DNA from: Planctomycetota bacterium
GTDB lineage: Bacteria; Planctomycetota; Phycisphaerae; Phycisphaerales; UBA1924
Length of the DNA: 64,000 nt
Assembly: GCA_014584315.1 (NCBI GenBank)
Contig: JACTNA010000016.1
Span: 83,566-147,565 of the forward strand
Direction: 5' to 3'
The notes beneath the pieces are model-generated. The model ran no database searches. It worked only from the letters and a program-made list of their open reading frames with translations, and was not told the origin of the DNA. Both the position numbers and the translations under genes were made by a program. Positions 36,594 through 62,548 of the stretch are shown piece by piece (positions within the stretch are counted from its first letter, which is position 1; each line of letters opens with the position of its first letter).

Positions 36594-36621
36594 ATCAACG
36601 TGGTCCACCCTTCGGTGGGAC

Positions 36622-38692: not shown

Positions 38693-39048
38693 TGACGGCC
38701 CCGAATCTTGGCGAATGTTCCCGCACGCTCTTGCTCAAGCAGTCCCGCAAGAGCCTCTAGATCGTCCAAAACGCGCGGCGACGCTGTCCCCGACATCAAT
38801 GCGCTGCCGAGTTCACTGAGCCGTGTTCGGCTTCCTCGCCCTCCTGCAAGCAGGCTTGCCAACAACTGCTCATGCGGCGCCGTGGCCGGGGGGTTGGCCA
38901 AGCGTAGGAGGATGGTGCCGAGTTGGCGTGGTTTGGATGCGTCGCCCGCACTGGAAGTCGATCTGAGGGCGATCAGGGCTGCGTCGAAGAGTTCGGCCAG
39001 CTGCCGGATTTCTCGGTAGAGTCCGGATTGCAGACCAGCAGTGCTCAT
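38689..39048 (-). CDS. 119-residue helical protein of the Argonaute operon
   Basis: Ala/Leu-rich, predicted all-helical, cytosolic, with no recognised family. Both ends overlap neighbouring genes by four bases (Argonaute upstream, metalloprotein downstream), so it is coupled to both. A bridging or regulatory subunit is plausible but not shown by the sequence. Confidence 0.55.
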   Translation of the reverse strand: MSTAGLQSGLYREIRQLAELFDAALIALRSTSSAGDASKPRQLGTILLRLANPPATAPHEQLLASLLAGGRGSRTRLSELGSALMSGTASPRVLDDLEALAGLLEQERAGTFAKIRGRQ

Positions 39049-41426: not shown

Positions 41427-42360
41427 CGGCGTCCTCCCAGCAAATGGAGCGGTATGGGCAGCGGCGGCAGAGGTCTGGATCACGGGTTACTCCAAAGTCT
41501 TCGGGCCGCAGTTCAGCATTGGCTCGCCCTTCCGTCACGAGCAGTATGTCGTTGACGCTGTGGGCGATGTAGTCGTGGATGTCGGCGAGTCGGTCCGCCT
41601 CCACGCGATGCTCTCGTACGACTCCGTTCAGCAACTGCACTTCCATCAGCCGGATGTCCTCCGGTTTCCAGGGCTGGCTCGTGGCAGGAAAGTCCTTATG
41701 GGGTTTGCCCTCAGCGAGTGCGAGGGCATAGGTCCCAAGCTGAAGCCAAGCCTCGTGCAAGCCGAAGACGTGCACCTTCCAGTCGATAATGGTCGGCGGG
41801 GCGGCGTCGTAGAAGGCGATCACGTCGGGTACCGCCCGAACGGTGACGCCGGAGTGCGCGACAGTGAGTGCGCGCTGCGCGACGAGATACTTGGCCGACT
41901 TGAGGGCGTTGCGGATCTGATCCAGGGTGAAGAGGCTCGAAAGTGCCCGATCCACTTCGTCCCACGCCCGGACAATCTCCGCGTCCGGGATGGCGCGGTC
42001 GTACTCCATGCAGTGGAATGCAGCGAACGCTTCTCCGGCCTCCTTGATGGAAAAGCCGGGTTCATGCAGGCGATGCTCACGAGCGCAACGAAGCTGCGCA
42101 TCAAACAGGGCGCGGGCGCGCGCCTTGATCTGCTGGAGCGTCGCGGTCTGCTTCCGGTTCAACGCGGGAATCAGCACGGTGCTGATGACCGTGTCCACCA
42201 GCGAGCCGCGCCAGCCGCTGATGCTCTGGAGTTTGCTGAGCAGATAAGCCCGCCTGCGAAGGGGGTCCTTGACGGCGTTGGCGTTCGCGACACAGTGCTT
42301 GAAATACCACTGCCGCTGGCACCGCCGGAACGCTTTCCCTTCAGAGATCGACCAGATCAT
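41413..42360 (-). CDS. Cas4/RecB-like PD-(D/E)xK nuclease with Fe-S cysteines
   Basis: 315 residues. The nuclease core is RAVPDVIAF (D179), TIIDWKV (D193, K195) and QLGTYALAL (Q207, Y211), the RecB/Cas4 order. Four cysteines, C14 near the N-terminus and C298, C301 and C307 in CRRCPYRSIC, are placed as in the 4Fe-4S cluster of Cas4 and AddB. It is coupled to the XRE regulator by a four-base overlap and overlaps the Argonaute gene. Likely roles are making guides or ends for the Argonaute, or acting as an effector that cuts DNA after target recognition. Confidence 0.8.
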   Translation of the reverse strand: MIWSISEGKAFRRCQRQWYFKHCVANANAVKDPLRRRAYLLSKLQSISGWRGSLVDTVISTVLIPALNRKQTATLQQIKARARALFDAQLRCAREHRLHEPGFSIKEAGEAFAAFHCMEYDRAIPDAEIVRAWDEVDRALSSLFTLDQIRNALKSAKYLVAQRALTVAHSGVTVRAVPDVIAFYDAAPPTIIDWKVHVFGLHEAWLQLGTYALALAEGKPHKDFPATSQPWKPEDIRLMEVQLLNGVVREHRVEADRLADIHDYIAHSVNDILLVTEGRANAELRPEDFGVTRDPDLCRRCPYRSICWEDADARA

Positions 42361-42704
42361 CGGGTGTTCCTCCCGCGGGTCTTGGATCGGAGGAACGCCA
42401 AGTAATCGGCGAGTGCCTCGTCCTCCGCAGCCGTGGTAGGTCCAAGACGGGCGGCTAGGCGACTGGACTCCGACCGCCGGCCGCCGCTTGGGACCGGATA
42501 CCCGGCGGCTTCAAGGAGCGACTCATAGGGAATGGCGTAGAGCTCGCTCAATCGGTGAAGGATATTGGGCGACGGCTCGCGGACTTTGCCGCCCTCCAGC
42601 TGGCTCAGATACGCGTTGGAAACCCCTGTCGCCTGCTCCACGGCACGGAGTGACAGGCCCTTTCGCGTCCGGCCCTCAACCAGAAGTGATCGCAAGGCGT
42701 CCAT
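42357..42704 (-). CDS. XRE-family regulator of the Argonaute operon
   Basis: 115 residues from the ATG at 42704, which follows GGAGG. The helix-turn-helix is near the start (LSLRAVEQATGVSNAYLSQLEGG), then a helical tail. It is the first gene of the operon, and the promoter contains repeats of GCTTGA that could be its operator, so autoregulation is likely. Confidence 0.8.
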   Translation of the reverse strand: MDALRSLLVEGRTRKGLSLRAVEQATGVSNAYLSQLEGGKVREPSPNILHRLSELYAIPYESLLEAAGYPVPSGGRRSESSRLAARLGPTTAAEDEALADYLAFLRSKTRGRNTR

Positions 42705-42723
42705 GCATGAACCTCCGCTGCTC

Positions 42724-42751
42724 ACTATATCAAGCGTGCTTGCGATGTCAA
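42724..42751 (-). promoter_or_regulatory. Promoter and candidate operator of the Argonaute operon
   Basis: On the minus strand TTGACA (42751-42746), 16-base spacer, TATAGT (42729-42724), 20 bases before the regulator ATG. The spacer and -35 box carry GCTTGA twice, and GCTTG/CAAGC forms an inverted repeat over the -35 box. Confidence 0.65.
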
Positions 42752-42836
42752 GCACCCTCCTTGGGCAGGTGTCCCTGCCTCCCCGAAGCCGGCTGCCAGG
42801 GTCGAGCGGGGGTTCGGGTCGGTATCGACGAGGTGG

Positions 42837-45782: not shown

Positions 45783-47882
45783 TCACGACACCCTCTTGAG
45801 AAACGCTTCGACAGACTTCGACATTTTGTACTGTCGCAGATCGTGCCATGTCGTTCCGAGCACCTTCGACAGCTTGTCGGAGTCTACGTAGTAAAAATTC
45901 GGGTCTGAACTAAGCACGCCCTCCTGAAGAAGTCGAGCAAGGATCTGCTCACCCATTTTACCTCTCAACACACGTTCATGCTCAATCTTGTCACGGTACT
46001 TCGCAAGCCCGCCCTTGCTATGCGATGCGAACTCTGAGAGTATGCGACGAAGGCGGCGATACTTCGCGGCAACCTCATCATCGGGGATGGTCCGCTCGGT
46101 CTTTTGGACGTACTTGGCGAGCGGGTACGCGAGATCGTGTTCTAAACAGGCGATCTCAATCGTCCCGCCCTTAATCGCAACCTCTTGGGCGTGCCCCTGG
46201 GCCTGCGCAACGTCGAGAAACAATCCCACATGGTCGCCTCCAGCCTGTCCTGGAATCTGACGAACGAGGAGGTCAGGCGTATCGATGTAGACCTTCCGTG
46301 CGACAATCCGGCAGGTCCCGCCGCATTCGAGAGTTGGCGCGCCTTGCAGAGCGATCTCACACGGCAATGTGACAGCGGCATTCGCAAGGCACGGGCCAAA
46401 CGGAATGTGGTCTTCATTAGATACGCGACCCTTGAACTTGAAGACCTGCCGCATTGTGGTGCCTTGCACGGCCACCGCCACTTCCAACTCGGCAGTAGAT
46501 TGGGCGGGAAGGTCGGGCTCATCCCAGGACAAGCCGCTCACTTCGACCGCAACATCATTGCCCTTGCCCATGAAGTCTGAGCAGGCTTGAATCAACATGT
46601 TGAAATGACGACAGTCGAGCTCTGCATTCGCAGCGCGGTCCGCCATGATGTAGAGCAGGTGATAGGTCGGTCGCCTGGATGCTGTGTATTCAACTGCCAG
46701 GGCACTGTATTCGGGAATATCACTCAATACACAGTGCGAGACGACAATTGCTTCAAACACCGCGTTCCGAATGCGCATGTCGTTGAGGAACGGATGCTCT
46801 GGACACCACATGCCGATAGCTTTCTCATACTCCTCGTTAAGCGCCGCATCATCGACCAACCGCCGGGGGAACGTGCGACCCAGCGCGCGAGACAGAACTC
46901 GTGCTGACTGCTCGACCTCGTTGTACAGCGCATCTTGCAGCTTCTGTGCTGTCTGTGCGTCTGCCTTGCTGCTGATCTCGGTGATGAAGTTGGGCACAGC
47001 CTTGTCATTACGCTCTCGTTGTAATAAATAGGTCGCAATTTGGATCAGCAGCGTCACTTCGAGGCCAGCGTTCGCGCCATCGCTAAGCGCCTGCTTGATA
47101 CGATGGTAGTTAGACTCGTTAGACAACAGAGTGGCAATTGCATCCAGTACTGGTGGATAGCCAATGAACGAGAGGAAGGCTTCGTTACTCCCGTCGGAGG
47201 AAGCGAAGGCGGCTCCGAGCTTCGATAGCACGGCATCGCGCGCCTCCTCGTACATTGCCTTCTGGCTTGCGTTCTTGTGCGTCACATAGGCGTCAATGTA
47301 CTCCTTCGCCTGCTCAAGGCTGAAGGGGTCTATGCGAACTAGGGCGACGTCCGCATTCTTCTCCGCCAAGTAGTACCATGTGCTGAAAAGGGTTTGGCCC
47401 CGACCGAAGATGACCACCGAGGTGCCGGCGGCACCCTCAGACCGCTCAATCACGTCGTCAAGGAATGCCTCAAACCCGTGTTCTGTCGTCTTGGACCGCC
47501 CCTCATCGACACCGTCGATGATTATTCCGTGCGTACCGTTACGAAGCCCTTCGAGTACAGCGCCGACCTTCTCAATCGGATATGCGGATGTGAGGATGCC
47601 CGTCAGCGAATTGTCAGCGACAGGCTTATGGGCTGCCAAATCAAGCAGGGGAAGACCGGTGTCGAAGCCCAATGCGCGCGCCGTCGTCGTCTTTCCCGAT
47701 GCGCCAACAGCCGACACCAAGAGGATTGCGGGTTTTTCCTTTGGGTGCTCCTCCTTGGTGAATGTCGGTTCAATGTATGGCGTCGGGCGCTCTACGACCT
47801 GGTAGAACGACGGTGATGCCGTGTTCATTTGCACCAGTTGTTTCTGTGATCCCACGACCGACTTCAATGCCCAATACTTCAT
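45783..47882 (-). CDS. P-loop NTPase inserted between hsdS and hsdR
   Basis: 699 residues. Walker A GASGKTTTA near 60-68 and Walker B GIIIDGVDEGRS near 119-130, with an NACHT/STAND-like order (VVIFGRGQTLFS near 155 as sensor). The C-terminal 350 residues have no recognised domain and include a helical region and a Cys/His-poor beta region. No TM segment. It abuts hsdR and follows hsdS by 24 bases, so it belongs to the operon. Less GC-rich than its neighbours. Likely a sensor or effector ATPase acting with the restriction system. Confidence 0.65.
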   Translation of the reverse strand: MKYWALKSVVGSQKQLVQMNTASPSFYQVVERPTPYIEPTFTKEEHPKEKPAILLVSAVGASGKTTTARALGFDTGLPLLDLAAHKPVADNSLTGILTSAYPIEKVGAVLEGLRNGTHGIIIDGVDEGRSKTTEHGFEAFLDDVIERSEGAAGTSVVIFGRGQTLFSTWYYLAEKNADVALVRIDPFSLEQAKEYIDAYVTHKNASQKAMYEEARDAVLSKLGAAFASSDGSNEAFLSFIGYPPVLDAIATLLSNESNYHRIKQALSDGANAGLEVTLLIQIATYLLQRERNDKAVPNFITEISSKADAQTAQKLQDALYNEVEQSARVLSRALGRTFPRRLVDDAALNEEYEKAIGMWCPEHPFLNDMRIRNAVFEAIVVSHCVLSDIPEYSALAVEYTASRRPTYHLLYIMADRAANAELDCRHFNMLIQACSDFMGKGNDVAVEVSGLSWDEPDLPAQSTAELEVAVAVQGTTMRQVFKFKGRVSNEDHIPFGPCLANAAVTLPCEIALQGAPTLECGGTCRIVARKVYIDTPDLLVRQIPGQAGGDHVGLFLDVAQAQGHAQEVAIKGGTIEIACLEHDLAYPLAKYVQKTERTIPDDEVAAKYRRLRRILSEFASHSKGGLAKYRDKIEHERVLRGKMGEQILARLLQEGVLSSDPNFYYVDSDKLSKVLGTTWHDLRQYKMSKSVEAFLKRVS

Positions 47883-47906
47883 GCGCGTCTCCGTTGCGGA
47901 GAGATC

Positions 47907-49325
47907 CTAATCGGCGACATCGACTGCCTCCTCGACCTGTTCGGCTTCCTCGTCCTCCAGGCCGACCTCTTCGATTGGCTCGTCGGCCGGCTCATCCGCC
48001 GGCATCGGTTCGGTCGGAACGAATCCGCGAACGTCCAGTTTGCCCGTGACGACATCGGCAATCAGGCGTGTGCGATATTCCCGGATCAGGTCGATCTCTC
48101 GCTGCGCGCGCACGATGGCTGCGGTCAGTGCTGCCGTCTGAGATCGCACTTCCTGGACGATGTGCTCCTGCTCCTTCGTGGTCGGGGGCATAGCAACGTG
48201 GAAGGTGCCGAGCTTCGACTCAGCGATCGCGGGGTAAGCAATCCCGATCGAGTTCGCTGTGACGCGGTTGATGAACGGGTCACTTTGGAGCGTGATTCCA
48301 AGGTACTCGGGTACAACTCCGGGCTCTGGGGTCAGCACCGCGAAGCCGGTTGATGCTACCAAGTCTGTAACCTCGTCCGCTACAAAGTACACCGCGCGAA
48401 GGTACGTACGAACAGTTGAGAGAATGGTGTCGCCGCGACGGAGAACGCGGCGAGCCCTTGAAGGTGCATCGCCGAATCGAATGCGGCTTGGTTGTCCCGT
48501 CAACCGTCCCGTTCCGACGCAGCCGATGTCCAGATAGTCGAACATGTAGTCAGGGTCGGTGCTCTCAGGCAAGACTCGCTTGTTGATCGAGACCCACCGC
48601 TTGAGCGGCTTAACTTCCCAGTGCGCGGGGATGTCGCCGAGCCAGTCGATACCGGATGGCTTGAGAGGGACGCTGTTGTCGAGGCCGCGGGTAACCGCTC
48701 GGTTGATGATGGCCTGCTTCTGCTCGTTCAAGACTTCGATCAGCCGGCGACGGTTGCGGATGAATCGCCGTATCCGGGTGGCGCTCGCGTCCAGGAAATC
48801 GGCGATGGCACGCTGTTCGTTCACTGGTACTACCGGTAGCGGCACCTGGCAGAAGTTTGCGAACGTCAAGTCCTGGCCGTCCCGAATGAACTGGCAGGTA
48901 GCACGTAGTGCCTGGATGTACGGGTTGGACTTGAAGAGGTGCGCGAAGTAAGGCACATGAACGTCGCGCCGTGGTTTGAGCACGACATAGGAGGATCGGA
49001 TCGCACCGCGGGCCCATGCCCGCTCCAGTCCGCCCTGGAAGCTCCTCATGCTGATGACGAAGTCGTCCTTCTCGACGTGCTTCCGCTTGTCCAAGTGGTT
49101 GAGAATGCGAACGACTTTGCGCCCGACGAGTCGCTCGAACTCTGCCTGCGGTATGACTCCGTGCGATTGCGTCGCGGACAACTGGATGTCGTCAGGACGA
49201 GCGCGTTCACCGCTCTCCGCGAATAGACGCTTCGCCGCTCGGATGTCCCAATGCGCAGGAATCTGGTCTAGCCAGCGACTTCCGGCGTCTTTGTACTCTG
49301 GATAGGGACGAAGGCCGTTCGTCAT
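47907..49325 (-). CDS. hsdS: Type I restriction enzyme, specificity subunit
   Basis: 472 residues with two target-recognition domains separated by helical conserved regions (NEQRAIADFLDASATRIRRF near 168; KEQEHIVQEVRSQTAAL near 385). Each TRD begins with a W-x-hydrophobic patch (DQIPAHWDIRAAK; GDIPAHWEVKPLK). Its ATG overlaps hsdM by four bases. The C-terminus has a long acidic tail. The subunit chooses the DNA target for methylation and restriction. Confidence 0.9.
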   Translation of the reverse strand: MTNGLRPYPEYKDAGSRWLDQIPAHWDIRAAKRLFAESGERARPDDIQLSATQSHGVIPQAEFERLVGRKVVRILNHLDKRKHVEKDDFVISMRSFQGGLERAWARGAIRSSYVVLKPRRDVHVPYFAHLFKSNPYIQALRATCQFIRDGQDLTFANFCQVPLPVVPVNEQRAIADFLDASATRIRRFIRNRRRLIEVLNEQKQAIINRAVTRGLDNSVPLKPSGIDWLGDIPAHWEVKPLKRWVSINKRVLPESTDPDYMFDYLDIGCVGTGRLTGQPSRIRFGDAPSRARRVLRRGDTILSTVRTYLRAVYFVADEVTDLVASTGFAVLTPEPGVVPEYLGITLQSDPFINRVTANSIGIAYPAIAESKLGTFHVAMPPTTKEQEHIVQEVRSQTAALTAAIVRAQREIDLIREYRTRLIADVVTGKLDVRGFVPTEPMPADEPADEPIEEVGLEDEEAEQVEEAVDVAD

Positions 49326-51322
49326 GCCCGCCCTCCGACAGGGGCGACGATCTGGTCGAGCAGCCCTTCGGCTTCGTCGTGGAGCGCCTCCAGGTCCGCC
49401 TTGATCTCGTCGAGCGTGCGCAGTGGCGCGGGCTTGTAGAAGTAGCGGGTGAACGACACCTCGTACCCGATCTTCGTCCCGGATTCATCGAGCCAGGCGT
49501 CCGACGCATACGGGAGTACCTCGCGCCGGATGAACGCCTCGATCCCGCCCTCCTCCAGCAACGGAATCTGCTCCGTGTCGCGCAGGGCCGAATCCGGCGC
49601 GTACTCCACGACGGCAGGCTTGCCGTCGATCGTGGTCTCAAACCGGCCGCGGAGCGGGTCGGGCTTGGTCCCCTTCTTGTGGACCTTGGTGATGACCGGC
49701 GGGGCGGACGAGTCGCGCTCGCTGGAGTCCCGCAGGGCCTTGATCTCTTTGGCCGTGTACACGCGGCCGGGCTCGGCGCCCTTGAGCCGCAGCGGCCGCT
49801 CGACCGTGACTTTCCAGTAGCCGAGCGCCTCGTTGGGCAGGATGCGGCTCTGCGGCGTCTCCTTGAAGGCGAGGAACGTGTTCACGATGCGGGCGATGTC
49901 GTCGGGGGACAGCTCGCAGTTCTTCTTGCCGAGGTTTTTGCGCAGCGGGCGGAACCATGCGGTCGCGTCGATCAACTGCACCTTGCCCTTACGGTGTTTG
50001 GCCTTGCGGTTGGTGAGAACCCAGATATACGTCGCGATGCCGGTGTTGTAGAACATGTTGAGCGGCAGCGCGATGATCGCTTCCAGCCAGTCGTTCTCGA
50101 TGATCCAGCGGCGGATATTGCTCTCGCCCTGGCCGGCGTCGCCGGTGAACAGGGATGAGCCATTGTGAACTTCGGCGATGCGGCTGCCGAGCCAGCCCTT
50201 CTTGCCGGTGTCGGGCTTCATCTTGCTCAGCATGTTGACCAGGAACATCAACTGGCCGTCGCTGGAGCGCGTGATGAGGGAGTATTCGGGGTCGTCGGCG
50301 TGCTGGATGACGAAGCGCGGGTCCTTGATGCCGCCCTTGCCGCCCATGCGCTCCAAGTCAGTCTTCCAACTCTTGCCGTAGGGCGGATTAGAGAGCATGA
50401 AGTCGAAGGTGCGGGAGCGGAAGGCGTCGGCGGAAAGGGTGGAGTGCTCGGGACCGCCGACGATGTTGTCGGCCGCGTCGCCCTCGCCCTTCATGAGCAG
50501 GTCGGCCTTGCAGATGGCGTAGGTCTCGGAGTTGATCTCCTGGCCGAACAGGTGCGTGGAAACCTGTTTGCCGTGCTCATTGGCGAGGGCTTGGAGCGTT
50601 TCTTCGGCGACGGTCAGCATGCCGCCGGTGCCGCAGGCGCCGTCGTAAAGCAGGTAGGTACCCGACTCGATATCGTCGGCGATCGGGCGGAAGATCAGTT
50701 CCGCCATGAGCTTCACCGCGTCGCGCGGCGTCCAGTGCTCGCCAGCCTCCTCGTTGTTCTCCTCGTTGAAGCGCCGGACCAGCTCCTCGAAGATGGTTCC
50801 CATCGCGTGGTTGTCGAGGCCGGGGTGCTTGATACTGCCGTCCGGGTTCGTGACCGGCGTGGGACTGAGGTTGATCTGCGGATCGAGCATGCGCTCGATG
50901 ATCGTGCCGAGCGCGTCAGCCTTGGAGAGCCGGGGAACCTGGTTGCGGAACTCGAAGGCGTTGAGGATGTCCTGCACGTTCGGGGAGAAGCCGTCGAGGT
51001 ACGCGTCGAAGTCGGCCCGCAGTTGCTGGGCCTTGGCGCGGGCCTTCAGGTCGCGGAGCGTGAAGGGTGATATGTTGTAGAACGCCTGCTTCGCCGCGGC
51101 ACGGAGCGCGGCGTCCTGGCTTGTGATCTTGGCCTTGTCGAGCCGGGCCTTCTGTTCAAGCACCGCCTGCTTGGTCGGTTCGAGCACGGCGTCGAGCCGG
51201 CGAAGCACCACCATCGGCAGGATCACGTCGCGGTACTTGCCGCGCACGTACACGTCCCGGAGCACGTCGTCGGCGATGCCCCAGATGAAGTTCGTGATCC
51301 AGTTTAGCTGTGCTTGGTCCAT
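49322..51322 (-). CDS. hsdM: Type I restriction enzyme, methyltransferase subunit
   Basis: 666 residues from the ATG at 51322. AdoMet motif I DGACGTGGML near 227 and the N6-adenine catalytic motif NPPY at about 312 are present, with the preceding EHWTPRDAVKLM typical of HsdM. A GTG at 51349 would overlap the previous gene by four bases; I prefer the ATG because GAGAAG precedes it. Confidence 0.93.
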   Translation of the reverse strand: MDQAQLNWITNFIWGIADDVLRDVYVRGKYRDVILPMVVLRRLDAVLEPTKQAVLEQKARLDKAKITSQDAALRAAAKQAFYNISPFTLRDLKARAKAQQLRADFDAYLDGFSPNVQDILNAFEFRNQVPRLSKADALGTIIERMLDPQINLSPTPVTNPDGSIKHPGLDNHAMGTIFEELVRRFNEENNEEAGEHWTPRDAVKLMAELIFRPIADDIESGTYLLYDGACGTGGMLTVAEETLQALANEHGKQVSTHLFGQEINSETYAICKADLLMKGEGDAADNIVGGPEHSTLSADAFRSRTFDFMLSNPPYGKSWKTDLERMGGKGGIKDPRFVIQHADDPEYSLITRSSDGQLMFLVNMLSKMKPDTGKKGWLGSRIAEVHNGSSLFTGDAGQGESNIRRWIIENDWLEAIIALPLNMFYNTGIATYIWVLTNRKAKHRKGKVQLIDATAWFRPLRKNLGKKNCELSPDDIARIVNTFLAFKETPQSRILPNEALGYWKVTVERPLRLKGAEPGRVYTAKEIKALRDSSERDSSAPPVITKVHKKGTKPDPLRGRFETTIDGKPAVVEYAPDSALRDTEQIPLLEEGGIEAFIRREVLPYASDAWLDESGTKIGYEVSFTRYFYKPAPLRTLDEIKADLEALHDEAEGLLDQIVAPVGGRA

Positions 51323-51345
51323 AGTCTGCTTCTCGCACTTGCTCG

Positions 51346-52590
51346 TCACGCCGTTGTGGGAGCAGTGGCTCTGAGGACGACGCGAAAGGACTCGCCGTCC
51401 TCGATAAGTTCCGGTGCCGTGCCGTTGTGCTCGCGCATTCCTTTGACAATCTTTCGCGGCACACCCATGCCCAGGTGTTCCAAGTAGCCGTAGTCGGCCA
51501 TGACATCCTTGAGAAGCTGATTTCGCGCCGCGCGACAGCCGGTGAGCATGCGCGCGGGCGTGATCCCGTTGGGTAGCCTGCCGGGCGAGATGACTTCTAT
51601 GCGATCCGCGTAGATGGACAGTTCGATGTCGGTCGCGGACAGCAGGTAGTCGCGATGCACCAGCGCATTGACGACCGTCTCACGGATCGCTTCCTCGGGG
51701 TATGCGGGTCGCTCAACGCGCCTGGCGCCATCTTCAAGCGTCGCGGTAACGGCTGTGTTGCGGCGCACGAAGTCGGTAGCCTGCTCAACCAGACCGTTCT
51801 CGACAACGCGCGGTTGCCCGCCAGTGACCGCCATGAGCGGCGTCAGAGGGCCTCGGAGATTCGCTCGTTCGCGTGCGGCGTAGTCCTTCTCAAGCCCAGG
51901 AAACGCTGTGGCAGAGATTCCGGCGTGGGCAAGGAACTTGTTCGGCGCCGTGCCAAAGAGCAGCAGACCCGCGACGCTCGGGCAGACCTGACCGGTGTTC
52001 GTTTCAATCATCAACTCCGTGTTGACGAGGAGGCTGGTCCAAGCCGCGTCGTCACTGAGGTCGGGAGCGGATTGCGCGCGGACACGGGCGAAGTAGTCCA
52101 CGAGACGCCGCCGGTCCAAGTCGGCCAGCGTGGCGCCGGAGATTGCCCTTAGCTCCGCTCTCACGGAACCGCGCCGCTGGAACAGTCGTTCAAGCTCCTC
52201 CTGGCTTGCTTCGCGGCATGTTGTCCCCACACGGATGTAGTACGTGCGGTGGTTGTTGTGCCAGACATGGTGTACGCTCCATCCGGCCTCAATCTGAACT
52301 ACCGCGACGTGTTTTCCCGGTTCAACTTCCTTGACGATCTCGAAAAACGGAATCAGCTCCGGGCGAATCTTGTCCCGGCATGCCTGCATGACCCACTCTT
52401 CGATGTTCGACCGGGTGATCCCGGCGACGCTTCCGTCATCCTCGACGCCGAGCAGCACACGGCCGCCTGCGAAGTTGGCAAAAGCGACCAGTTCCTTCGC
52501 AAGCGCGCGGGCCTCAATGGTGTCCTGCTTGAACTCCACGCCGGAGTTCTCGCCGTTTCGGATCAGCTCTAGCAGTTCGGTGCGTGTCAT
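51346..52590 (-). CDS. AlbA_2/Schlafen-type ATP-binding regulator
   Basis: 414 residues. The N-terminal AlbA_2 domain is clear: SGVEFKQDTIEARALAKELV near 16 and FANFAGGRVLLGVEDDGSV near 40. A C-terminal ATPase/winged-helix part has ETVVNALVHRDYLLS near 295 and DRIEVISPGRLP near 320. Such proteins are linked to type I systems and other defence loci as regulators or RNA-directed effectors. It is the gene just before hsdM. Confidence 0.75.
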   Translation of the reverse strand: MTRTELLELIRNGENSGVEFKQDTIEARALAKELVAFANFAGGRVLLGVEDDGSVAGITRSNIEEWVMQACRDKIRPELIPFFEIVKEVEPGKHVAVVQIEAGWSVHHVWHNNHRTYYIRVGTTCREASQEELERLFQRRGSVRAELRAISGATLADLDRRRLVDYFARVRAQSAPDLSDDAAWTSLLVNTELMIETNTGQVCPSVAGLLLFGTAPNKFLAHAGISATAFPGLEKDYAARERANLRGPLTPLMAVTGGQPRVVENGLVEQATDFVRRNTAVTATLEDGARRVERPAYPEEAIRETVVNALVHRDYLLSATDIELSIYADRIEVISPGRLPNGITPARMLTGCRAARNQLLKDVMADYGYLEHLGMGVPRKIVKGMREHNGTAPELIEDGESFRVVLRATAPTTA

Positions 52591-52598
52591 GCGGTGTC

Positions 52599-55313
52599 CT
52601 AAAATCCGTACTTCAGCCGACGCATCTCGAAGGCAACCTTGCCGCCCTCAAGCAGTTCTTCCACTAGCGCCCGAACAGGCTGCGAGTCGATGGATCCCAT
52701 GAATTCCGGACCCATGCGACCGTGAACTTGCTGTTGATCGTTGCTGCCTGCTGAGAGTCCGACGATGAGCTCCGCATCGCCCAGCACCGGGATGTTTGCA
52801 TTGTGTGTGGAGAAGAGAAACTGTCGGCGCCTCTTTTCCTGGCGCATCTTGGGAACCACGCCCTCCGTGATGAAGCGGTTGTCGAGGTCGTCCTCCGGCT
52901 GGTCCACGACAAGGGGTGCGTCGGACTCCAGCAGCAGCAGTAATAGGACGGCGGTGGCCTTCTGCCCCGTTGAGAGTTGCTCCAATGTGTGCCACTGCGG
53001 GTCTTCACCTTCGGCAGCGGTATTCAGTTCGATTCGCGTCGTCGATGGCAGATCAAGTTCCTCAACGCGAAGCACAACATCCGGTTCACACTGGATGAGC
53101 TTCTCCGCCTGCGCGACCGGAATCGAGAACTTCCGGGCGAGTTCGTCCTTGCCGGCGCGCCATGCGTTCGCCAACTCCATGAGCGAGAGCTCGGCGAGCC
53201 CAGCGAGCCGATCAATCGTGTCCTTGAGGCGTCCAACGTTCAGCTCACGCAGGAGCCTTTCCAGCGGTTCCCGATTGCCGGCCATCGAGACTTCCACCCG
53301 CACTCGTTTCTCCAGGGCGCGGGTGACGCGTTTGGCCGCTGTTTGAAGCGTGCGGAATTCCTGCGCCTTGAGGTCCTCCCACTCGGCGACGAGATTGCGG
53401 CGCTCAGCAGCAAGTTCCTTGGCTTCGCGCTGAAGAATGGCCTCGCGGTCCTTGAGTGGGCGAAGCTCTTCGATCTGTCGCCGGAGCCTGATGAACTCTT
53501 CGCCGTCAATCTTCGACTTCTGAAGCTCGCGGAGAATCTGCTCGTAACGCTCCTGGACGCTCGCCTGCCGCTTGCTCCACTCGGAGCCAACCTCGCTCAG
53601 GCCGCCTTCAGCATTCTGCAATGCCGAGTCAAGCTGTGCGAGCAGAGAGGAAGCGGTCGCGTCAAGCTGGCTCAGAATCTTGTCAGCCTTTGCAAGGATG
53701 CCCCGGCCAGGCAGCGTCTCCAGCGCTTTCTCGGAAAGAAAGGCGCGATCGAGCGGGAGTGCGCGCCGTAGATGATCGATCGCCTGCCGAAGGGACAGCA
53801 CACGCTCATCCGCGGTCCGAAGCACACGCTCTTCGCGCACGATGAGACTCTGCTCCTTCAGGCGTTCCTCTAGACCGGCCTCCTGAAATCGTTTGAGTGT
53901 CTCCTCAAGCGCCGGCAAGGCAGCGAGCCGCTCAACAACTTGCCGCGTCTCCTTGATGTTCTCGAGAATTCTCGTGCGAGAACGCTCCAGCCTTCGCTTG
54001 GTCTCCACCTTGCGGCGCGACACATCTTCGTCACGTTCGACGAAGCGCTCTAAGAGGCGGGTGAGCTTCTCGCGGCTCTTGGTCAACTCTGAAATTTCGT
54101 GCTGACCGTACACCTCGACGCCTGGCAGTACGTCCAAGGGGCTTAGGTTCAGCACGTTGCCGTCGTCATCGCGAACCAGTGGTGGATTGGGCACCGTTCG
54201 TTCGATGATGTACTCTCGCTTGGCAGGCCGATGGGATCGAACTCTTAGAGAGATCTTGGTGCCGCTCTGGAGCACGTCCCTCACGATCCCGTCATGGTTC
54301 CGTTGCGCTTCGTCCCCCAGAGGCTTGAGGCCGAGTACGTAGCGCAAGCTCTCGACCACCGTGGACTTGCCAGCGCCGCGGCCTCCGATCAGCACGTTCA
54401 GGTTCTCGTTGAAGTGGATCGCCGCCTTGTCCAAGAATCCTGCCTGCCACGCGATGGCGAGAAACTCCGAGTGTTCTTCCGGGGCGGGGTCGCTTGCGAG
54501 ACGGACGCGGGACTCGGGGTCAAGAAACGCCTGTCGCAGGCCTTCGATGGAGACGGAGGACATCTTGATGAAGCATGACGCGCTGGGATCGGCGAGCTTC
54601 TCGGGCGTGTTGACGTCGCTGGCGTTCAAGATCGCAACCGGACGCTCCCGCTTGTGGTTGGGGTCCGTGTTTTCAAGGATGACTCGCACATCCTGCGGAG
54701 TATCGCGTACCGCACCGGGAATCGCGCAGGCGAACAGCCGGCGATGGCGCCATGCCTGCATGCGCGTCTGGCCGCTCAGTGTCTTGAGAAGGCCGCCGCT
54801 TTGATGCGTGCAATGGGCGGCAATGCACACGCTTCCCCACTCTGCGGTCTTGTCGAGCAGCTCCGTTGTGTCCAAGCTCCCAAGCGGGGAATTCGTGGAA
54901 CTGTCTTGAACACCGCAGGCGCCGATGTGCCGCTCCAGTTCGGAAAAGGGCTTGCCCGGTTCAAAGAGACAGAGGAAATGAACTCCGTCCTTCGTGACGG
55001 CTTCAAAGCCGGGGAACACGATGATCCCCGCTTTCGTTGCCGCATCGACAAGGCTCTGACTGGATTGGACTCGGTAATGATCTGTGACCGCGATAACTTC
55101 AATGCCGTGGTCAAGACAAGCGGCGACGATGGCGTCGTTGTAGGACTGCTCGTCAGCGAACTTTGAGTTCTTGTTGTGCCGTCCGAGATACTCGAAGGGG
55201 TTGACTTGGAGCGCGCAGCGGTAGAAGCGTGCCCCGTTGGGAAGATCTAGTGCGCTGGCGAGAAGGCCGTTCGGCTTGACGGACGCAGCGGTCGTGGAGG
55301 AAGTGCGAGTCAT
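52599..55313 (-). CDS. TrlF-like PHP domain-AAA (SMC-type) ATPase
   Basis: 904 residues. A PHP phosphoesterase-like domain occupies about 30-250 (VIAVTDHYRVQ near 73, IAAHCTHQSGG near 164, ILNASDVNTPE near 228). An ABC/SMC-type ATPase follows: Walker A LIGGRGAGKST near 308, a long coiled coil from about 410 to 740, signature LSTGQKATAV, Walker B LVVDQPEDDLDNRF and the H-loop FSTHNANIPVLGDA. This resembles the TrlF family known near type I systems. It is expected to be a DNA-end or damage sensor nuclease. The ATG overlaps the HTH gene by four bases. Confidence 0.75.
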   Translation of the reverse strand: MTRTSSTTAASVKPNGLLASALDLPNGARFYRCALQVNPFEYLGRHNKNSKFADEQSYNDAIVAACLDHGIEVIAVTDHYRVQSSQSLVDAATKAGIIVFPGFEAVTKDGVHFLCLFEPGKPFSELERHIGACGVQDSSTNSPLGSLDTTELLDKTAEWGSVCIAAHCTHQSGGLLKTLSGQTRMQAWRHRRLFACAIPGAVRDTPQDVRVILENTDPNHKRERPVAILNASDVNTPEKLADPSASCFIKMSSVSIEGLRQAFLDPESRVRLASDPAPEEHSEFLAIAWQAGFLDKAAIHFNENLNVLIGGRGAGKSTVVESLRYVLGLKPLGDEAQRNHDGIVRDVLQSGTKISLRVRSHRPAKREYIIERTVPNPPLVRDDDGNVLNLSPLDVLPGVEVYGQHEISELTKSREKLTRLLERFVERDEDVSRRKVETKRRLERSRTRILENIKETRQVVERLAALPALEETLKRFQEAGLEERLKEQSLIVREERVLRTADERVLSLRQAIDHLRRALPLDRAFLSEKALETLPGRGILAKADKILSQLDATASSLLAQLDSALQNAEGGLSEVGSEWSKRQASVQERYEQILRELQKSKIDGEEFIRLRRQIEELRPLKDREAILQREAKELAAERRNLVAEWEDLKAQEFRTLQTAAKRVTRALEKRVRVEVSMAGNREPLERLLRELNVGRLKDTIDRLAGLAELSLMELANAWRAGKDELARKFSIPVAQAEKLIQCEPDVVLRVEELDLPSTTRIELNTAAEGEDPQWHTLEQLSTGQKATAVLLLLLLESDAPLVVDQPEDDLDNRFITEGVVPKMRQEKRRRQFLFSTHNANIPVLGDAELIVGLSAGSNDQQQVHGRMGPEFMGSIDSQPVRALVEELLEGGKVAFEMRRLKYGF

Positions 55314-55525
55314 GCTTCCTTCCCTTCGTCGTGACCACGACCAGCTGGTGGATGTTCACTCGACTGGCGGTTGATCCATTCGTTCACTTGGTCTTGCCGA
55401 AACTTCCAGAGCCGGCCGACCTTCAGCGCGGGTAGCCCGTTGCGGTCAATCAGCTTGTAGACCGTGTCTCGCTTCACGCCCAGAAAGGCGGCAACCTCGT
55501 CTGCTGAAAGTAGTCGCTGTGTCAC
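55310..55525 (-). CDS. Small helix-turn-helix DNA-binding protein (excisionase/MerR-like)
   Basis: About 71 residues from the GTG at 55525 (an ATG at 55555 would add 10). One helix-turn-helix, LLSADEVAAFLGVKRDTVYKLIDRNGLPALKVGRLWKF, of the AlpA/excisionase group. It heads the seven-gene restriction operon, so it may regulate it; the fold is also used by mobile-element excisionases. Confidence 0.75.
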   Translation of the reverse strand: MTQRLLSADEVAAFLGVKRDTVYKLIDRNGLPALKVGRLWKFRQDQVNEWINRQSSEHPPAGRGHDEGKEA

Positions 55526-55589
55526 TGGCCGCCTCCCGGGCGGGTGATGGAGCAATGCCTATGGAAACCGGTCTGGGCCATTTCAGCCG

Positions 55590-55618
55590 ATTCTATTGGA
55601 CACGGACGGCCTTGTCGA
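55590..55618 (-). promoter_or_regulatory. Promoter of the seven-gene restriction operon
   Basis: On the minus strand TCGACA (55618-55613), 17-base spacer, TAGAAT (55595-55590), about 65 bases before the HTH gene start. Confidence 0.5.
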
Positions 55619-55652
55619 GCCGAAAGTTGGGACCGTCAGCCCGGTTCGCGGC

Positions 55653-56393
55653 TCAGGCGGCTTCCGCCAGCTCAGCGTGGGACGGCCGCGATGATCTCGG
55701 CGGCGGTCTTCTGGATGCGGTCGAGGGAAGCGGCCAGCGTCTCGGCCTTGCCGTCGAAGAGCTGGATGTAGTCGCTGGCGGCGGTGCCGGTCTCCAGGCC
55801 GATCGCCTGGCAGACGACGAAGGCGACGGCCTCGGCCTCGGGACGGAGAACTCAACGGCCGGCTCCAGGTCGGGACGGATGCTGATGCGGCCGCCACGGG
55901 AGACGCCGAGGGCGTCGTGCGGCACGTCGATATGGTCGAGCGTGATGCCTCGCTCAGCCACCAGCGCCTTGAGGCGGCCGGTGTGGTGGCGCGGATCGCC
56001 GTTCACGCGCGCCGGCTCGGGCAGCGGCTCGCCGTCGGTCTGCGACACGTCGAAGACGTAAACGCCGCGAAACCGGAGCACGGGCTTGGAGGCTTCGGCG
56101 CCGTCGCTGTCCGGCTCGTCGCGCTTGCGGATGAGCATCGGCGCGATGATGACGATGCCCTTCTCGCCCTTGCGGACGAAGCGGCCCATCTGCCGCCAGG
56201 TGTGGAAGCCGGCGACGTGCGTGGCGTCGGGGCGCTGCGAGAGGATCATCAGCACGTTCCCGAAGCTGTACTTGTGGAACTTCGCCAGCATGGCGAGGTA
56301 GCGGGTGAGCGCTTCGCTCTTGCCCTTGGCGAGCGCGTCGGCGAGTTGTTCGAGGGCCTGGTCGGCGATCTTCTTGGCTTGTTCGGCTTTCAT
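55653..56393 (-). pseudogene. ArdC-like antirestriction protein lacking the HExxH region
   Basis: From the ATG at 56393 the first 183 residues are a good ArdC N-terminal domain (ssDNA-binding; KYSFGNVLMILSQRPDATHVA near 41, GFHTWRQMGRFVRKGEKG near 62). After AVEFSV the family should continue into a zincin helix (HELAHE) and then an E-A-E-A-V-A-F-V-V block. Here AVEFSV runs directly into codons for PEAEAVAFVVCQAIGLE, but one base out of frame. About 30 codons, including the catalytic HExxH, are missing and the current frame is nonsense to its stop at 55653. The original frame would stop at 55672. Confidence 0.7.
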
Positions 56394-56662: not shown

Positions 56663-59600
56663 TCAACGCTGAAGCGACGTGTCGGCGGGCAGTCGGTGCG
56701 CCCGTCGCCTCTGGTCGGCGACGTGTTCCCGGTACTGCTTCGGGGCTCGCTGCGGTACGCCTGCACCTGGCGCGTTCAGTCCGGGGATGGCGAAAGCGTC
56801 CGGCTCGTGCGATGGCGCGGCGTCCTCGCAACGCGCCACGGCTTGGCGACGGATGCGGGTGGTGACCGGTTCCTCGGCGTCGAGGCGGCGGGTGGCGGCT
56901 CGTGCGGCCGGCGCTTCGACGGTGTGTGCCGCTTTCAGCGCCTTGATCCGCTCGGCGAGTTCGGCGGCCGTCGCTGCGGGAGTTCCGGCGGTCGATTCGG
57001 TCGTCATGCCGGCGAGGCTGGCCTTGAGCCGGTCGCGCAGGGCGGTCAGCTCGTCCTGGTAGGACTCGTGGACGAACGGCCTGCCGACGCGGGCCTGGTA
57101 GTCGCGGAGTTGCGACTCGGCGATGGAGAGGTCCTGCCGGAGCCGGGAGATGTCGGTGTCGTAGCCGGCGCAGAGCCGGTCGAGGGCGTTGAGGACGGCG
57201 CGCGCTCCGTGGCTGCCGCGGGTGAGCCGGTCGGTCCGGGTCGCGGCCCCTTCGAGGTAGACCTCCGGCGGGAAGTGCGGGCAGAGCACGAGGCCGAAGC
57301 GCAGGCCGCGGTAGGTGCCGAGCGGGACGCGCTGCTCCTCGCGGACGGCCTGCGGCAGCGCCTCCAAGCGCTTGCCGAGCACGGCCATTGCGTCCTCGCG
57401 CGGGTAGGCGCGCTCGCCGATGACGATGTCGTCGCCGGCGTGGGCGGTGACGGTCGCCCGGTCAGCGTCGAGACCCGCTAACCGCTCAGAAAACCTGGCG
57501 ATCCTGCCCGGCAGGTCGCGCACGTTGCGGCGGGCGACGTACTGCTCGTCAAGGTGGTTTTTCCTGAGCAACGCCAGCCGCTGTAATTCTGCGTCGGCCT
57601 CGGCGAGCGTAAGCACCGCCGGGTTGCCGGAGGCGATGGCCTTCACTTCCGCGTAGGAGAGTTCCTGGCCGCCCACGTCCTCGGCCCGGCGGGCGGCGTT
57701 GTGTCCGGTGATGACCTGGCCGATGAACCGGGCTTTCGTTTCAAGGGCCTGCCACATGTAGGCGTCGAACGAGCCCTCGGTGACGTAGCGGTAGACCGCC
57801 ACTTCCTCGTTCGTGTTCCCCTGGCGCAGGATGCGGCCTTCGCGCTGCTCGACCTCCGCCGGCTTCCACGGCGCGTCGAGGTGATGCAGGGCGACCAGCC
57901 GCTGCTGGACGTTCGTGCCGGTGCCCATCTTCTGCGTGCTGCCGATCAGTACGCGCACTGTTCCGTTTCTGACCTTCTCGAAGAGGGCCTGTTTCTTCGC
58001 GTCGGAGTCCGCGTCGCCGATGGCCGCAATCTGCGAACGCGGGATGCCGGCCGCGACGAGCTTCTCCGTCACGTCCTCGTAGACCGAGTAGCCCCACGGC
58101 GTCGGGTTCACACCCATGTCGGAGAAGATCATCTGCGTGCCGCGCGTGGCGGCCGTGCGCCGCCAGATGTTGGCGACGTTCTCGACCAGGCGGTTGACCT
58201 TCGAGCCGGGGAAGTCGGTGGCGGACGGCGAGAGCAGCCGGGCGTCGGTGGCGAGCTTGCGCCCGTCGGTGGTGATGGCCAGCGCGTTGTCCTCGCGCGG
58301 GTCCACTTTCTCGCTCCGCAGCCGCTCGTATCTCGCGACGAGCTGGTCCTGCAGGGCGTGCTGCTCATCGGACATCGGGCAGGCGACGACGATCGCCTTG
58401 CCGGTTTCCAGTTTCGGCGTCGGAAGGTTCAGCATCCCGGCGGTCTGCACGTCGGCAAACGCCCGGAACATTTGCTGGAGTTCCGGCAGGTTGGTGAACT
58501 TCGCAAAGCGGCTGCGCGGCCGCAGCGACGCCCCGTCCGGCGAAATCTCCATCGTGTCGATCACCTCGCCGAAGGTGGCCGCCCAGGCGTCGAAATGCTC
58601 CAGCCCGCGGCTTTTCAGTCCCGCCGGGTCGAGGAAGCGCTGCATGGTGTACATCTCCACCATCGTGTTCGAGACCGGCGTCCCGGTGGCGAACGTCACG
58701 CCGTGGCCGGGATGCCGCTCGCCCAGGTAGCTCGCCTTCATGTACACGTCGAAGGCGCGTTCGCTGCCGCCGGTCTGGATGCCGGCGACGCGCTCCATCT
58801 TGGTCGGCGTCTCCAGGTTCTTGAAGTAGTGGGCTTCGTCGATGAAGACGTGATCGACGCCGAGCTCGTCGAAGACGAGGCCGTCGTCCTTCTTCTCGCG
58901 GGCCAGCAGGTCTTTCAGGCGCTCGACGCGGGCCGCCTTCTGCTTCTCGATCTGCTTGATGATGTTGCGGTTCGATCCCTTGGCGCCGGCATGCTCGATC
59001 AGCAACCGGTCGTACTCGGCGATCTGCTCGGTGAGGAACTTCTCCTGGTAGTCCCGCGACATCCCGATGCGCTCGAACGACGAATGCGTGACGAGGATGC
59101 CGTCCCAGTCGCCGCTGGCGATCCTGGCGGTGAGCAGCTTGCGGCGGTCGCGCGCCAAATCCTCCTTCGTTGCCACGAGCAGTTTCGCATTGGGGTAGAG
59201 CTGCATGAACTCGCGGGCGAACTGCTCCAGCAGGTGGTTGGGCACGACGTACATGGGTTTTCGGATGAGGCCGGCCTGCTTCATCTTCATGCCGGTCGCG
59301 GCCATCGTGAAGGTCTTGCCGGCGCCGACGGCGTGCGCCAGCAGGGTGTTGCCGGCGCTCATGCCGCGCCACACCGCGTCGCACTGGTGCGGGCGGAGCC
59401 GGATGGTCCGGTTCATGCCGGGGAAGTCGAGATGCGCGCCGTCGAACAGTCGCGGCCGCAGATTGTTGTAGGTGTCGTTGTAGATGCGCACCAGCCGCTC
59501 GGTGCGCTCCGGGTCGGCGAAGACCCAGGCGCGGAAGCGCTCCTTGATGAGCTTCTGCTTCTCGCGGGCGGCCATCGTCTCTTCCCGGTTGACGACGCGC

Positions 59601-61873
59601 TCCTCGCGGTCGCCGTGGTCGATCACGTCGTAGATCGTCGGCGATTTCATGTTGAGTGCCAGTTCCAACAGCCACGTGCCGTTGGCGCGATGGGTGCCGT
59701 AGTCAGAGGTGGCGGAGACGGATTGCTTCGCCGCGTAGCCGGCGTCGAGATTCCAGACGGCGTCCTTGGCGAGGTGCGCCACCGGCACGGCCTCGGGCGC
59801 AACGTGGAACAACTCGGCGGCGAAGGCCTGGATGTCGCTGGCGGGAATCCACGGCGCGCCGAGATTGGCGTCGATGTCGCCGGGCAGCACGTCCTCGGGC
59901 TGCACGCGGCGCAATGCCTCGGCGTTGCGGGTGAACTTGCTACCGGCGCTCTCGGCGACGGCGAGTTTGTGGCGGACGTTGCCGGAGAGATACTCGTCGG
60001 CCGTCCGCCACTGCTTCGACTCCGGGTCGTGGTAGACCAGGTCGCCCAGTTCGGCGATGACCTGCTGCTCCGGCTTGCCGTAGAGCCCGGCGATGAACGG
60101 CAGGTCCACCCTGCCCCGCTGGTTGAGCGAGACGAGCAAGCCCTCCTCGGCGCTTCGGACCTGCGTCACGGGCGGCGTGCGGCCGACCACGTCGCGGCTC
60201 ATGATCGCCGCCTTGGCCGCCTTGCCGGTGACCTCGTCGTAGTCTTCCAGCGACATCACCAGCATGGCGTCGGGGTCTTCGATGAACTTCACCAGGTTGG
60301 GCCGGCGGCGGATGACGCTGCCGTCGCGAGTCTCGCTGAAGCTGGTCTTGTTGATCGGGCCGTAGGCGCGCACGAATCGGTCGTAGGCGAGATTCAGATC
60401 GCGGCGGGCCTCGTCGCGGTGCTCCGCTGGCCAGCCCTCGTTCTGCGACTCAAGCACACGGCGGGCGCGGTCACGGATATCAATCAGCGCCGCCATGCGC
60501 TTACCGGTCAGCGTGCCGTTCGCTTTCAGCGCCGTACCGCCGTAGACGACGGGCACTGTCTGACGGCCGGCGACTTGGTAGATACCGCGATCCTCGCCGA
60601 CGAAGAAGCTCCCCTCGTCGATGTGGCGCTGCAGCGGCGGCGGAACAAACGACGGCGCGGCCGGCTCTTGCGGCCGGGTCGCCTGCATCGGCGAAAACTC
60701 CGGCAGGCGGGCGATCGCCTCGCGGAGTCTCGCGGCAAGGTCTCCACCGCCGCGGACGCTGTATCCCTCGCCGTAGAGCGTGTCCTTGCGGCTCCACTCG
60801 CCCAGCACCATTTCCGGGTGATTCAGGAAGTAGCGGTTGACGGGAACCTCGACACCCTCGACGGCGAGCGAGGCCACGCGCAGCCAGTCGGGGTCTACGT
60901 GATGCTGCGGCTCGCCGGGGGCGCGCCTGCGCAGGAAAAGGATGTCGGTGACGACGGACGTGCCCTCGCGCCTGAAGGCGTCGGACGGCAGGCGGATCGC
61001 CCCCACGAAATCCGTCCGCTCGGCGAGATACTCGCGGATCGCGGCGTTCTGCTTGTCGAGCGTGAAATGCGAGGTGACCACAGCCAGCACGCCGCCGGGC
61101 TTGAGCGCGTCCACGGACTTCGCGATGAAGTAGTCGTGCAGGGCGAGCTTCTGCCCGTGATAGTCGAGCCGGATGTCGGCGAAGGGGACGTTGCCGATCA
61201 CGGCGTCGATGCCGCCCTCGGGGAGTTTCGAGTCACGGAAGTTCTCGATGCGGATGTCGTGCTGCGGGTGCAGCGCCCGGGCGATACGCCCGGAAATCGA
61301 ATCCAGCTCGACGCCGATGAAGCGCCTGTTCCCGCTGCCCTGGCGCATGAAGTTGCCGATGCCGCAGCCCGGTTCGAGGACCAGCGCGTCGTCGGGTGCG
61401 CCCAATCGCCCGATGGCTTCGTGGATCGCCGCAATGACGGTCGGCGACGTGTAGAAGGCGTTGAAGGTGGTCCGCCTAGCGCTCTCGTACTCCTCGGGCG
61501 AAAGCAGCGCCTTCAGTTCCTCGCCGAGCACCTGCCAGCCGGCGTCCTTGAACCACCCGGTCACCGGGTCGGGGAAGATCGAGAGCGCCACCGGCCCGAA
61601 GCCGGCGAACCTGGCGAGGGTTCGCTGCTCATCGGGCGTGGCCCGCCGGCCTTCCTGCTCGATGGCCTTCAGCGTGCGGATGGCCGCGAGGATGTCGCGG
61701 GCCTTCTCCTTCTCGCCGCTGGCGATCTCGACAACCGGGGCGGGAGTGCTATCCGGCGATTGCTCGGTCGTCCCGGCGCGATGCGGAGTCTCGACGGGAG
61801 GCGCGGCGTCGTGATCCGGCCGGGGCGTCGGCGGCGGCAGATCCCACAGCGTGGGGGCGCGACGCGCCTTCAG
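56663..61873 (-). CDS. Giant DNA methylase-helicase (DarB/plasmid antirestriction type)
   Basis: About 1,740 residues. An N6-adenine methylase domain is near the start (LVLEPGCGIGNFMRQ and DAVIGNVPFADIRL; the catalytic motif is N-V-P-F). A helicase follows: VGAGKTFTMAATG (Walker A), VFIDEAHYFKN (DEAH box), TFATGTPVSNTM, IGSTQKMGTGTNVQ and VEQREGRILRQGN motif VI. A coiled-coil C-terminus ends it. Such proteins ride on plasmids and ICEs and protect incoming DNA or modify it. The frame is open to 62305, but that part is overlapped by a gene in another frame; I suggest translation from about 61873, where CTG overlaps that gene's TGA. No ATG, GTG or TTG lies in frame nearby. Confidence 0.75.
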   Translation of the reverse strand: MKARRAPTLWDLPPPTPRPDHDAAPPVETPHRAGTTEQSPDSTPAPVVEIASGEKEKARDILAAIRTLKAIEQEGRRATPDEQRTLARFAGFGPVALSIFPDPVTGWFKDAGWQVLGEELKALLSPEEYESARRTTFNAFYTSPTVIAAIHEAIGRLGAPDDALVLEPGCGIGNFMRQGSGNRRFIGVELDSISGRIARALHPQHDIRIENFRDSKLPEGGIDAVIGNVPFADIRLDYHGQKLALHDYFIAKSVDALKPGGVLAVVTSHFTLDKQNAAIREYLAERTDFVGAIRLPSDAFRREGTSVVTDILFLRRRAPGEPQHHVDPDWLRVASLAVEGVEVPVNRYFLNHPEMVLGEWSRKDTLYGEGYSVRGGGDLAARLREAIARLPEFSPMQATRPQEPAAPSFVPPPLQRHIDEGSFFVGEDRGIYQVAGRQTVPVVYGGTALKANGTLTGKRMAALIDIRDRARRVLESQNEGWPAEHRDEARRDLNLAYDRFVRAYGPINKTSFSETRDGSVIRRRPNLVKFIEDPDAMLVMSLEDYDEVTGKAAKAAIMSRDVVGRTPPVTQVRSAEEGLLVSLNQRGRVDLPFIAGLYGKPEQQVIAELGDLVYHDPESKQWRTADEYLSGNVRHKLAVAESAGSKFTRNAEALRRVQPEDVLPGDIDANLGAPWIPASDIQAFAAELFHVAPEAVPVAHLAKDAVWNLDAGYAAKQSVSATSDYGTHRANGTWLLELALNMKSPTIYDVIDHGDREERVVNREETMAAREKQKLIKERFRAWVFADPERTERLVRIYNDTYNNLRPRLFDGAHLDFPGMNRTIRLRPHQCDAVWRGMSAGNTLLAHAVGAGKTFTMAATGMKMKQAGLIRKPMYVVPNHLLEQFAREFMQLYPNAKLLVATKEDLARDRRKLLTARIASGDWDGILVTHSSFERIGMSRDYQEKFLTEQIAEYDRLLIEHAGAKGSNRNIIKQIEKQKAARVERLKDLLAREKKDDGLVFDELGVDHVFIDEAHYFKNLETPTKMERVAGIQTGGSERAFDVYMKASYLGERHPGHGVTFATGTPVSNTMVEMYTMQRFLDPAGLKSRGLEHFDAWAATFGEVIDTMEISPDGASLRPRSRFAKFTNLPELQQMFRAFADVQTAGMLNLPTPKLETGKAIVVACPMSDEQHALQDQLVARYERLRSEKVDPREDNALAITTDGRKLATDARLLSPSATDFPGSKVNRLVENVANIWRRTAATRGTQMIFSDMGVNPTPWGYSVYEDVTEKLVAAGIPRSQIAAIGDADSDAKKQALFEKVRNGTVRVLIGSTQKMGTGTNVQQRLVALHHLDAPWKPAEVEQREGRILRQGNTNEEVAVYRYVTEGSFDAYMWQALETKARFIGQVITGHNAARRAEDVGGQELSYAEVKAIASGNPAVLTLAEADAELQRLALLRKNHLDEQYVARRNVRDLPGRIARFSERLAGLDADRATVTAHAGDDIVIGERAYPREDAMAVLGKRLEALPQAVREEQRVPLGTYRGLRFGLVLCPHFPPEVYLEGAATRTDRLTRGSHGARAVLNALDRLCAGYDTDISRLRQDLSIAESQLRDYQARVGRPFVHESYQDELTALRDRLKASLAGMTTESTAGTPAATAAELAERIKALKAAHTVEAPAARAATRRLDAEEPVTTRIRRQAVARCEDAAPSHEPDAFAIPGLNAPGAGVPQRAPKQYREHVADQRRRAHRLPADTSLQR

Positions 61874-62187
61874 CCGCGCGACGTGAGACTGCGGACGAAC
61901 GCCATCGCGGCGTCCAGAGACAACTGCCCCTGCCCGCTGGCCGGAAACGCGGCCTGTAAACGATGCTCCATCTCCGCCGCCGCGATCTCCATCGCCGCGC
62001 TCGCCGCCTGTGCGGGGTCGAGGTCCGGCCTCGTCGCCGCCAGGTCCTTCTTCAGTTCCTCGTGCCGGGCCTTGAGCGCCGTCGCCAGCGTCTCGGTCGC
62101 CGCCAGCAGCATCCGGCCGCGGCGGAGCTGCTCGTGCAGCGGCGGCGCGCTCTGCAGGAGTTCGAGGATGATCGTCTTGTACGGCAT
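61870..62187 (-). CDS. 105-residue helical protein preceding the methylase-helicase
   Basis: From an ATG preceded by GAGGGAG at six bases. The product is helical, with TIILELLQ at the start and LDAAMAFVRSLTS at the end. Nearly every third codon position is G or C, as in real genes here; the overlapping frame does not show this so well. Function unknown. It should be coupled to the methylase-helicase. Confidence 0.65.
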   Translation of the reverse strand: MPYKTIILELLQSAPPLHEQLRRGRMLLAATETLATALKARHEELKKDLAATRPDLDPAQAASAAMEIAAAEMEHRLQAAFPASGQGQLSLDAAMAFVRSLTSRG

Positions 62188-62548
62188 GGGGTTCTCCCTC
62201 GGTTTGTTGCGGCGGTTCTTCCAGGGCGACGGCGGCGCCCTCCCCGTCGAGCGTGAAAAGCAGCGGTGTTTCTGAACCGGGGCGTGACCGTCTGCGCATC
62301 GTCACGGCGCGGCGTGCCCGCCCGTTCCATCGTCGCCGGTGCGTCCACGCGCAGAGGCATCACCGCCGGAGACGACGGCCCCGGAAGGCACAGTCATGGC
62401 AAGGTGGACGGAAGATTCGATGCACGCGGGGCGGGAATGACGGGGCATGGAGTCGGTGGTGTGAGTTGTGGCGTACTCACATGCCACACTCCCGCCGACG
62501 AATCAACCCAAAACTGAATCGGCCGAAGCACGCCTCGCTTCCGGCAGG
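62188..62548. other. Stretch between the regulator and the methylase region
   Basis: Contains the N-terminal extension of the methylase-helicase frame (codons for SETPLLFTLDGEG near 62260), which could be a short gene or a relic, and about 240 bases with nothing recognisable. Confidence 0.4.

Follow-up and report, generated by a model that had tools for sequence, protein, structure and literature searches.

The window analyzed here, a 64,000-nucleotide stretch of a contig from a bacterium of the Planctomycetota, probably carries a recently inactivated ardC gene, broken by a loss-of-function deletion and located in a resident planctomycete element that is probably still mobilizable. Simple gene decay was the most likely reading of this deletion, considering the sequence of the broken copy, its intact relatives, and the element in which it lies. 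An earlier note on this DNA had described the same gene, and its observation was largely right, with the corrections given below.

The 246-aa open reading frame (ORF) scored 45.8 bits for the ArdcN domain (PF08401), above the cut-off of 22.6 (E value, 8.5e-12; profile positions 5-123 of 123), and among PDB sequences it matched R388-type ArdC (6I89 and 6SNA) over residues 26-124 (E value, 0.0014), confirming the ArdC-like gene proposed previously. The first 184 codons comprised the ssDNA-binding domain (residues 7-114 matched ArdcN) and the start of the metallopeptidase domain, and the 92-95% identity over these 184 residues indicated common descent with intact ArdC genes. The frame was good through EFSV at codon 184, in agreement with the earlier note, which had read the family domain as intact up to AVEFSV and the following conserved block as out of frame. 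Past this point, the frame turned rich in arginine, proline, and serine, and the continuation of the peptidase domain, with the conserved block EAEAVAFVVCQAIGLETGTAASDYIQL..., sat in another frame; such a disruption of the frame, with the gene conserved in other respects, marks a recent pseudogene. A structure prediction for the 246-aa product, made from a 14-row alignment, reached a mean pLDDT of 42, which is too low for the model to be used. This gene was the only ArdcN match in the window's genome, and no second ArdC that might complement the broken copy was detected by that profile search. In addition, a search for another metallopeptidase (MPTase) with PF18818 gave no match, but this negative is uninformative, as the controls were likewise without a match.

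Table 1. Coordinates of the broken ardC gene, its lesions, and its neighbors within the window
Feature	Position	Strand	Basis or remark
Broken ardC ORF, 246 aa	55653..56393	(-)	ATG at 56393 preceded by AGGAG; full Pfam ArdcN domain
ardC codons 1-184, intact frame, ending EFSV	55842..56393	(-)	92-95% protein identity to intact L023-L025
Deletion junction	55840..55843	(-)	blastn and MAFFT alignments; ≤1 nt of microhomology
Conserved "glutamate helix" block with the sequence that follows it, shifted out of frame	55682..55841	(-)	52 codons compared with L023
Second length change, net -8 bp versus nearest relatives, restoring the original frame	55680..55683	(-)	Alignment
Terminal 8 codons (HAELAEAA) plus ancestral stop, back in frame	55653..55679	(-)	Alignment
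SNF2/ResIII-type helicase with DNA-methylase-like domain, 1880 aa, intact, 5' neighbor	56663..62305	(-)	Only triplet indels versus G079
Variable defense cargo	37508..55555	(-)	Shared with none of G001, G086, and G079
HTH_17 protein, first cargo gene 3' of ardC	55310..55555	(-)	Domain match

To define the lesion, related ardC genes were collected from public genomes and also from genomes related to that of the window. The closest intact relatives were one gene from the same genus (L023) and two from other families of the order (L024 and L025), all of them 273-codon genes with the motif HELAH and with the same 5' DNA as in the window. Unlike these intact planctomycete genes, the window copy was shortened by 73 bp and by a second length change. 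The 73 bp (24 codons plus 1 base) were gone at about 55841, a length measured against three homologues with 92-95% protein identity, one of which was from the same genus as the window, so the previous estimate of about 30 absent codons was too high. The missing DNA encodes the HExxH helix, ...HELAHELLHRGEDR...RET, and was kept in all close relatives. Neither the zincin HExxH nor the downstream glutamate was found in frame in the window ORF (the former deleted with the 73 bp, the latter in the out-of-frame EAEAVAF block), and the loss of the metallopeptidase motif had been recognized correctly. This absence is not due to chance, since the stretch is present in all other full-length relatives. 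Alignment with intact ArdC genes, which the earlier note had proposed, supported the deletion and also revealed the second length change near 55681, which that note had missed. When the old frame was read through this second change, a short and poorly conserved C terminus was merely replaced by an early stop (IIAAVPR*); for this reason, the second change is not necessarily compensatory and may be older and harmless.

The 73-bp deletion was unique to the window copy among about 45 homologues. Its 26-base junction had no exact match in viral contigs, and a search of a plasmid collection for the same deletion allele returned distant partial matches only. Slippage or assembler collapse between repeats was rejected, as no flanking repeat that could explain the deletion was found in window positions 55600-56000. 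The HExxH motif was kept in 40 of the 41 full-length relatives, down to 48% identity, and the sole exception (L075) had HYLAQ together with an in-frame stop. This gene was one of three other ardC copies that were broken differently, the remaining two having a stop in the middle of the gene (L020) or a mid-gene deletion of ∼250 bp plus a stop (L021). Judging from these alignments, ardC in this clade is broken occasionally, by differing lesions, while the peptidase is otherwise well kept.

Across the 52 post-deletion codons, compared in the old frame, the window copy showed no nonsynonymous and three synonymous differences from L023, and no nonsynonymous and seven synonymous differences from L024. 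Over its 184 intact codons, it differed from L023 at 26 synonymous and 9 replacement codons; with L024 and L025 used to polarise the replacements by hand, about 3 fell on the window side versus 4 to 5 on the L023 side, and the ssDNA-binding domain of the window copy had no excess change. Because drift was seen neither in the first 184 codons nor in the post-deletion codons, the lesion would be very recent, or else an assembly error. An artefact of assembly or strain mixture, by which 73 bp were lost from the consensus while the gene in the cell is intact, was considered unlikely: a pair of length changes in so short a gene, followed by no drift, would also be expected of an error, and the genome is a draft of 36 contigs, but there is no flanking repeat to collapse, a net loss of 73 bp is not a homopolymer slip, the 5.6-kb neighboring gene shows only triplet indels against a 90%-identical relative, and the relaxase aligns unbroken. 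An indel-rich assembly was rejected as well, since no such indels occurred in the neighboring helicase or relaxase genes.

The ArdC of R388 shields conjugating DNA from the HsdRMS system of the recipient, its known in vivo target, and is required in the recipient only (PMC7213743). Its metal ligands are H201, H205, and E229, and the E229A mutant had full conjugation-promoting activity and kept its anti-restriction function, with DNA binding alone being proposed by the authors to block HsdRMS (PMC7213743). The window gene has the same N-terminal ssDNA-binding domain as the ArdC of IncW R388/pSa (PDB 6SNA and 6I89) but, in contrast to the R388 protein, in which all three ligands are kept, it is without the HExxH helix and has the third ligand out of frame. 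More generally, ssDNA binding is the proposed role of ArdC-N, and the MPTase domain is present in ∼70% of the polyvalent proteins with ArdC-N and missing from about 30% of them (PMC5512222). The window gene resembles the latter in pairing an ssDNA-binding domain with no active peptidase; however, MPTase-less polyvalent ArdC-N proteins are described family architectures, whereas the window gene is one young out-of-frame lesion.

Both the activity of the E229A mutant with the proposed block by DNA binding and the natural MPTase-less proteins would favor a truncated ArdC that works as an ssDNA-binding-only anti-restriction factor, with a dispensable protease, coating incoming or newly copied element DNA against type I enzymes; the intact ssDNA-binding domain and the restored frame of the last 8 codons and old stop point the same way. 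We nevertheless regard such a function as improbable, given that E229A alters a single residue of a folded domain, while most of the peptidase domain here is missing or scrambled, and that the positive groove of R388 ArdC sits between its two domains (PMC7213743). Moreover, with the motif kept in all but one of the full-length relatives, the protease evidently matters in this clade, and too little time has passed since the lesion for selection to be visible. Nothing in the sequence favors such a factor. The strong HExxH conservation argues for a protease job in the planctomycete clade, yet R388 could do without it in one mating pair. The broken ardC offers a natural test of an ssDNA-binding domain without its peptidase domain, a question that the R388 point mutant answers only in part; in other respects, this is an ordinary case of an accessory gene with a young lesion, of modest value as a natural experiment.

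In the preferred and simplest reading, recent loss of function in a gene required only at transfer, a 73-bp deletion with almost no microhomology took out the HExxH active-site helix and put the third metal ligand and the remaining peptidase domain, with all its later helices, out of frame. The gene can now encode no more than the ssDNA-binding domain, the beginning of the peptidase domain, and a tail of about 62 mostly out-of-frame residues. Considering the loss of all three metal ligands, the 246-aa product is predicted to be protease-dead, and it is probably unstable or inactive, although residual ssDNA-binding activity is possible. Since ArdC is thought to matter on the entry of an element into a new, restricting host, a chromosomal ardC copy may be free to decay between transfers. 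Of the two options raised in the earlier note, a decaying gene fits better, as the deletion is young and shifts the frame, the lesions of other copies are different, and the motif is so widely kept (40/41). Counted against decay are the lack of excess change in the ssDNA-binding domain and the R388 E229A mutant, which still protects, so that protease loss need not mean function loss (PMC7213743).

The backbone of the element around ardC was 74-93% identical at the DNA level to elements in other planctomycete genera, families, and orders, a range that covered the elements in three other genomes (G001, G086, and G079). Its open mobility genes encode a TrwC relaxase, two serine recombinases, a TraG/TraD-type coupling protein, and ParA, and the relaxase aligned full-length (882 residues) in all three relatives. 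An open TrwC relaxase together with a serine recombinase and a coupling protein assigns the element to the MOBF mobilizable elements. As on R388, which has a TrwC relaxase, ardC here lies on an element with a relaxase of that type. These gene contents suggest a resident element that is not obviously dead and is probably still mobilizable, and the "former" mobile element of the earlier note is not supported by them. The flanks gave no single clean empty site for the window element in same-genus genomes.

The cargo 3' of ardC contained, in order, HTH, PHP/AAA (Ppl-like), AlbA, HsdM, HsdS, an unknown protein, HsdR, HTH, a Cas4-like nuclease, pAgo_II, and another unknown protein. The corresponding position held a DrmD-like helicase and a type III methylase in G001; Cas12b, a Cas4-Cas1 fusion, and a repeat array of roughly 8 kb in G086; and HmaABC homologues in G079. 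Ten large ORFs chosen in the 3' flanks of seven further copies likewise matched defense families (PglX-like, type IIG, IetS, type III R-M, GajB-like, and HmaA). All of these calls are family matches, with helicases and methylases matching loosely, but the pattern was consistent across the window and the 3' flanks of ardC in L056/L057, L060, L064, L097, L098, L100-L102, L002, and L005: in this family of mobilizable elements from planctomycetes, the DNA 3' of ardC is a swappable defense-cargo slot. The slot is a more interesting feature than the broken ardC and may be useful to those seeking new defense systems.

The presence of HsdM, HsdS, and HsdR in the cargo 3' of the broken ardC raises the idea that its loss was favored, as an active ArdC would blunt the adjoining type I R-M system on the same element. 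Window-like Hsd genes occurred in the slot of the window only, among the elements examined, and were absent from the fetched 3' flanks of relatives with intact ardC; likewise, ardC was broken in the window only, among the window and its three closest relatives, and HsdRMS is the in vivo target of ArdC (PMC7213743). Such a conflict was nonetheless deemed very improbable, being a single case, and the intact-ardC genomes have type I systems elsewhere (for example, HsdM is encoded three times in G086 and once in G079). Because these two genomes have both, intact ArdC and type I R-M are compatible in one cell, and a strict incompatibility was rejected at the genome level. Taken jointly, it is distinctly improbable that either idea holds, namely, that the shortened ArdC has been selected to counter restriction without a protease or that its loss was favored by the element's own adjoining type I restriction system.

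Several features of the slot were also observed. The prokaryotic Argonaute of class II, with 812 aa and a score of 1014 bits to PADLOC pAgo_II, and the adjoining Cas4-like nuclease occupied positions 39045-42360, sharing the cargo with the type I R-M system. Two ORFs were without a Pfam or PADLOC match, namely, a 699-aa ORF between HsdS and HsdR (45783-47882) and a 394-aa ORF next to the Argonaute gene (37508-38692). The array in G086 (L060, G086:C1:2307648-2315893), with a repeat of about 36 bp over roughly 8 kb, adjoined Cas12b and the Cas4-Cas1 fusion and lay 3' of an intact ardC. In addition, a strong GC hairpin (GGAGCGGGAGA...TCTCCCGCTCC) lay within a conserved stretch at 36316-36607. In the window, as in G001 and G086, this stretch is at the cargo end distant from ardC, but in G079 it is between the cargo and ardC; it may mark the cargo insertion point.
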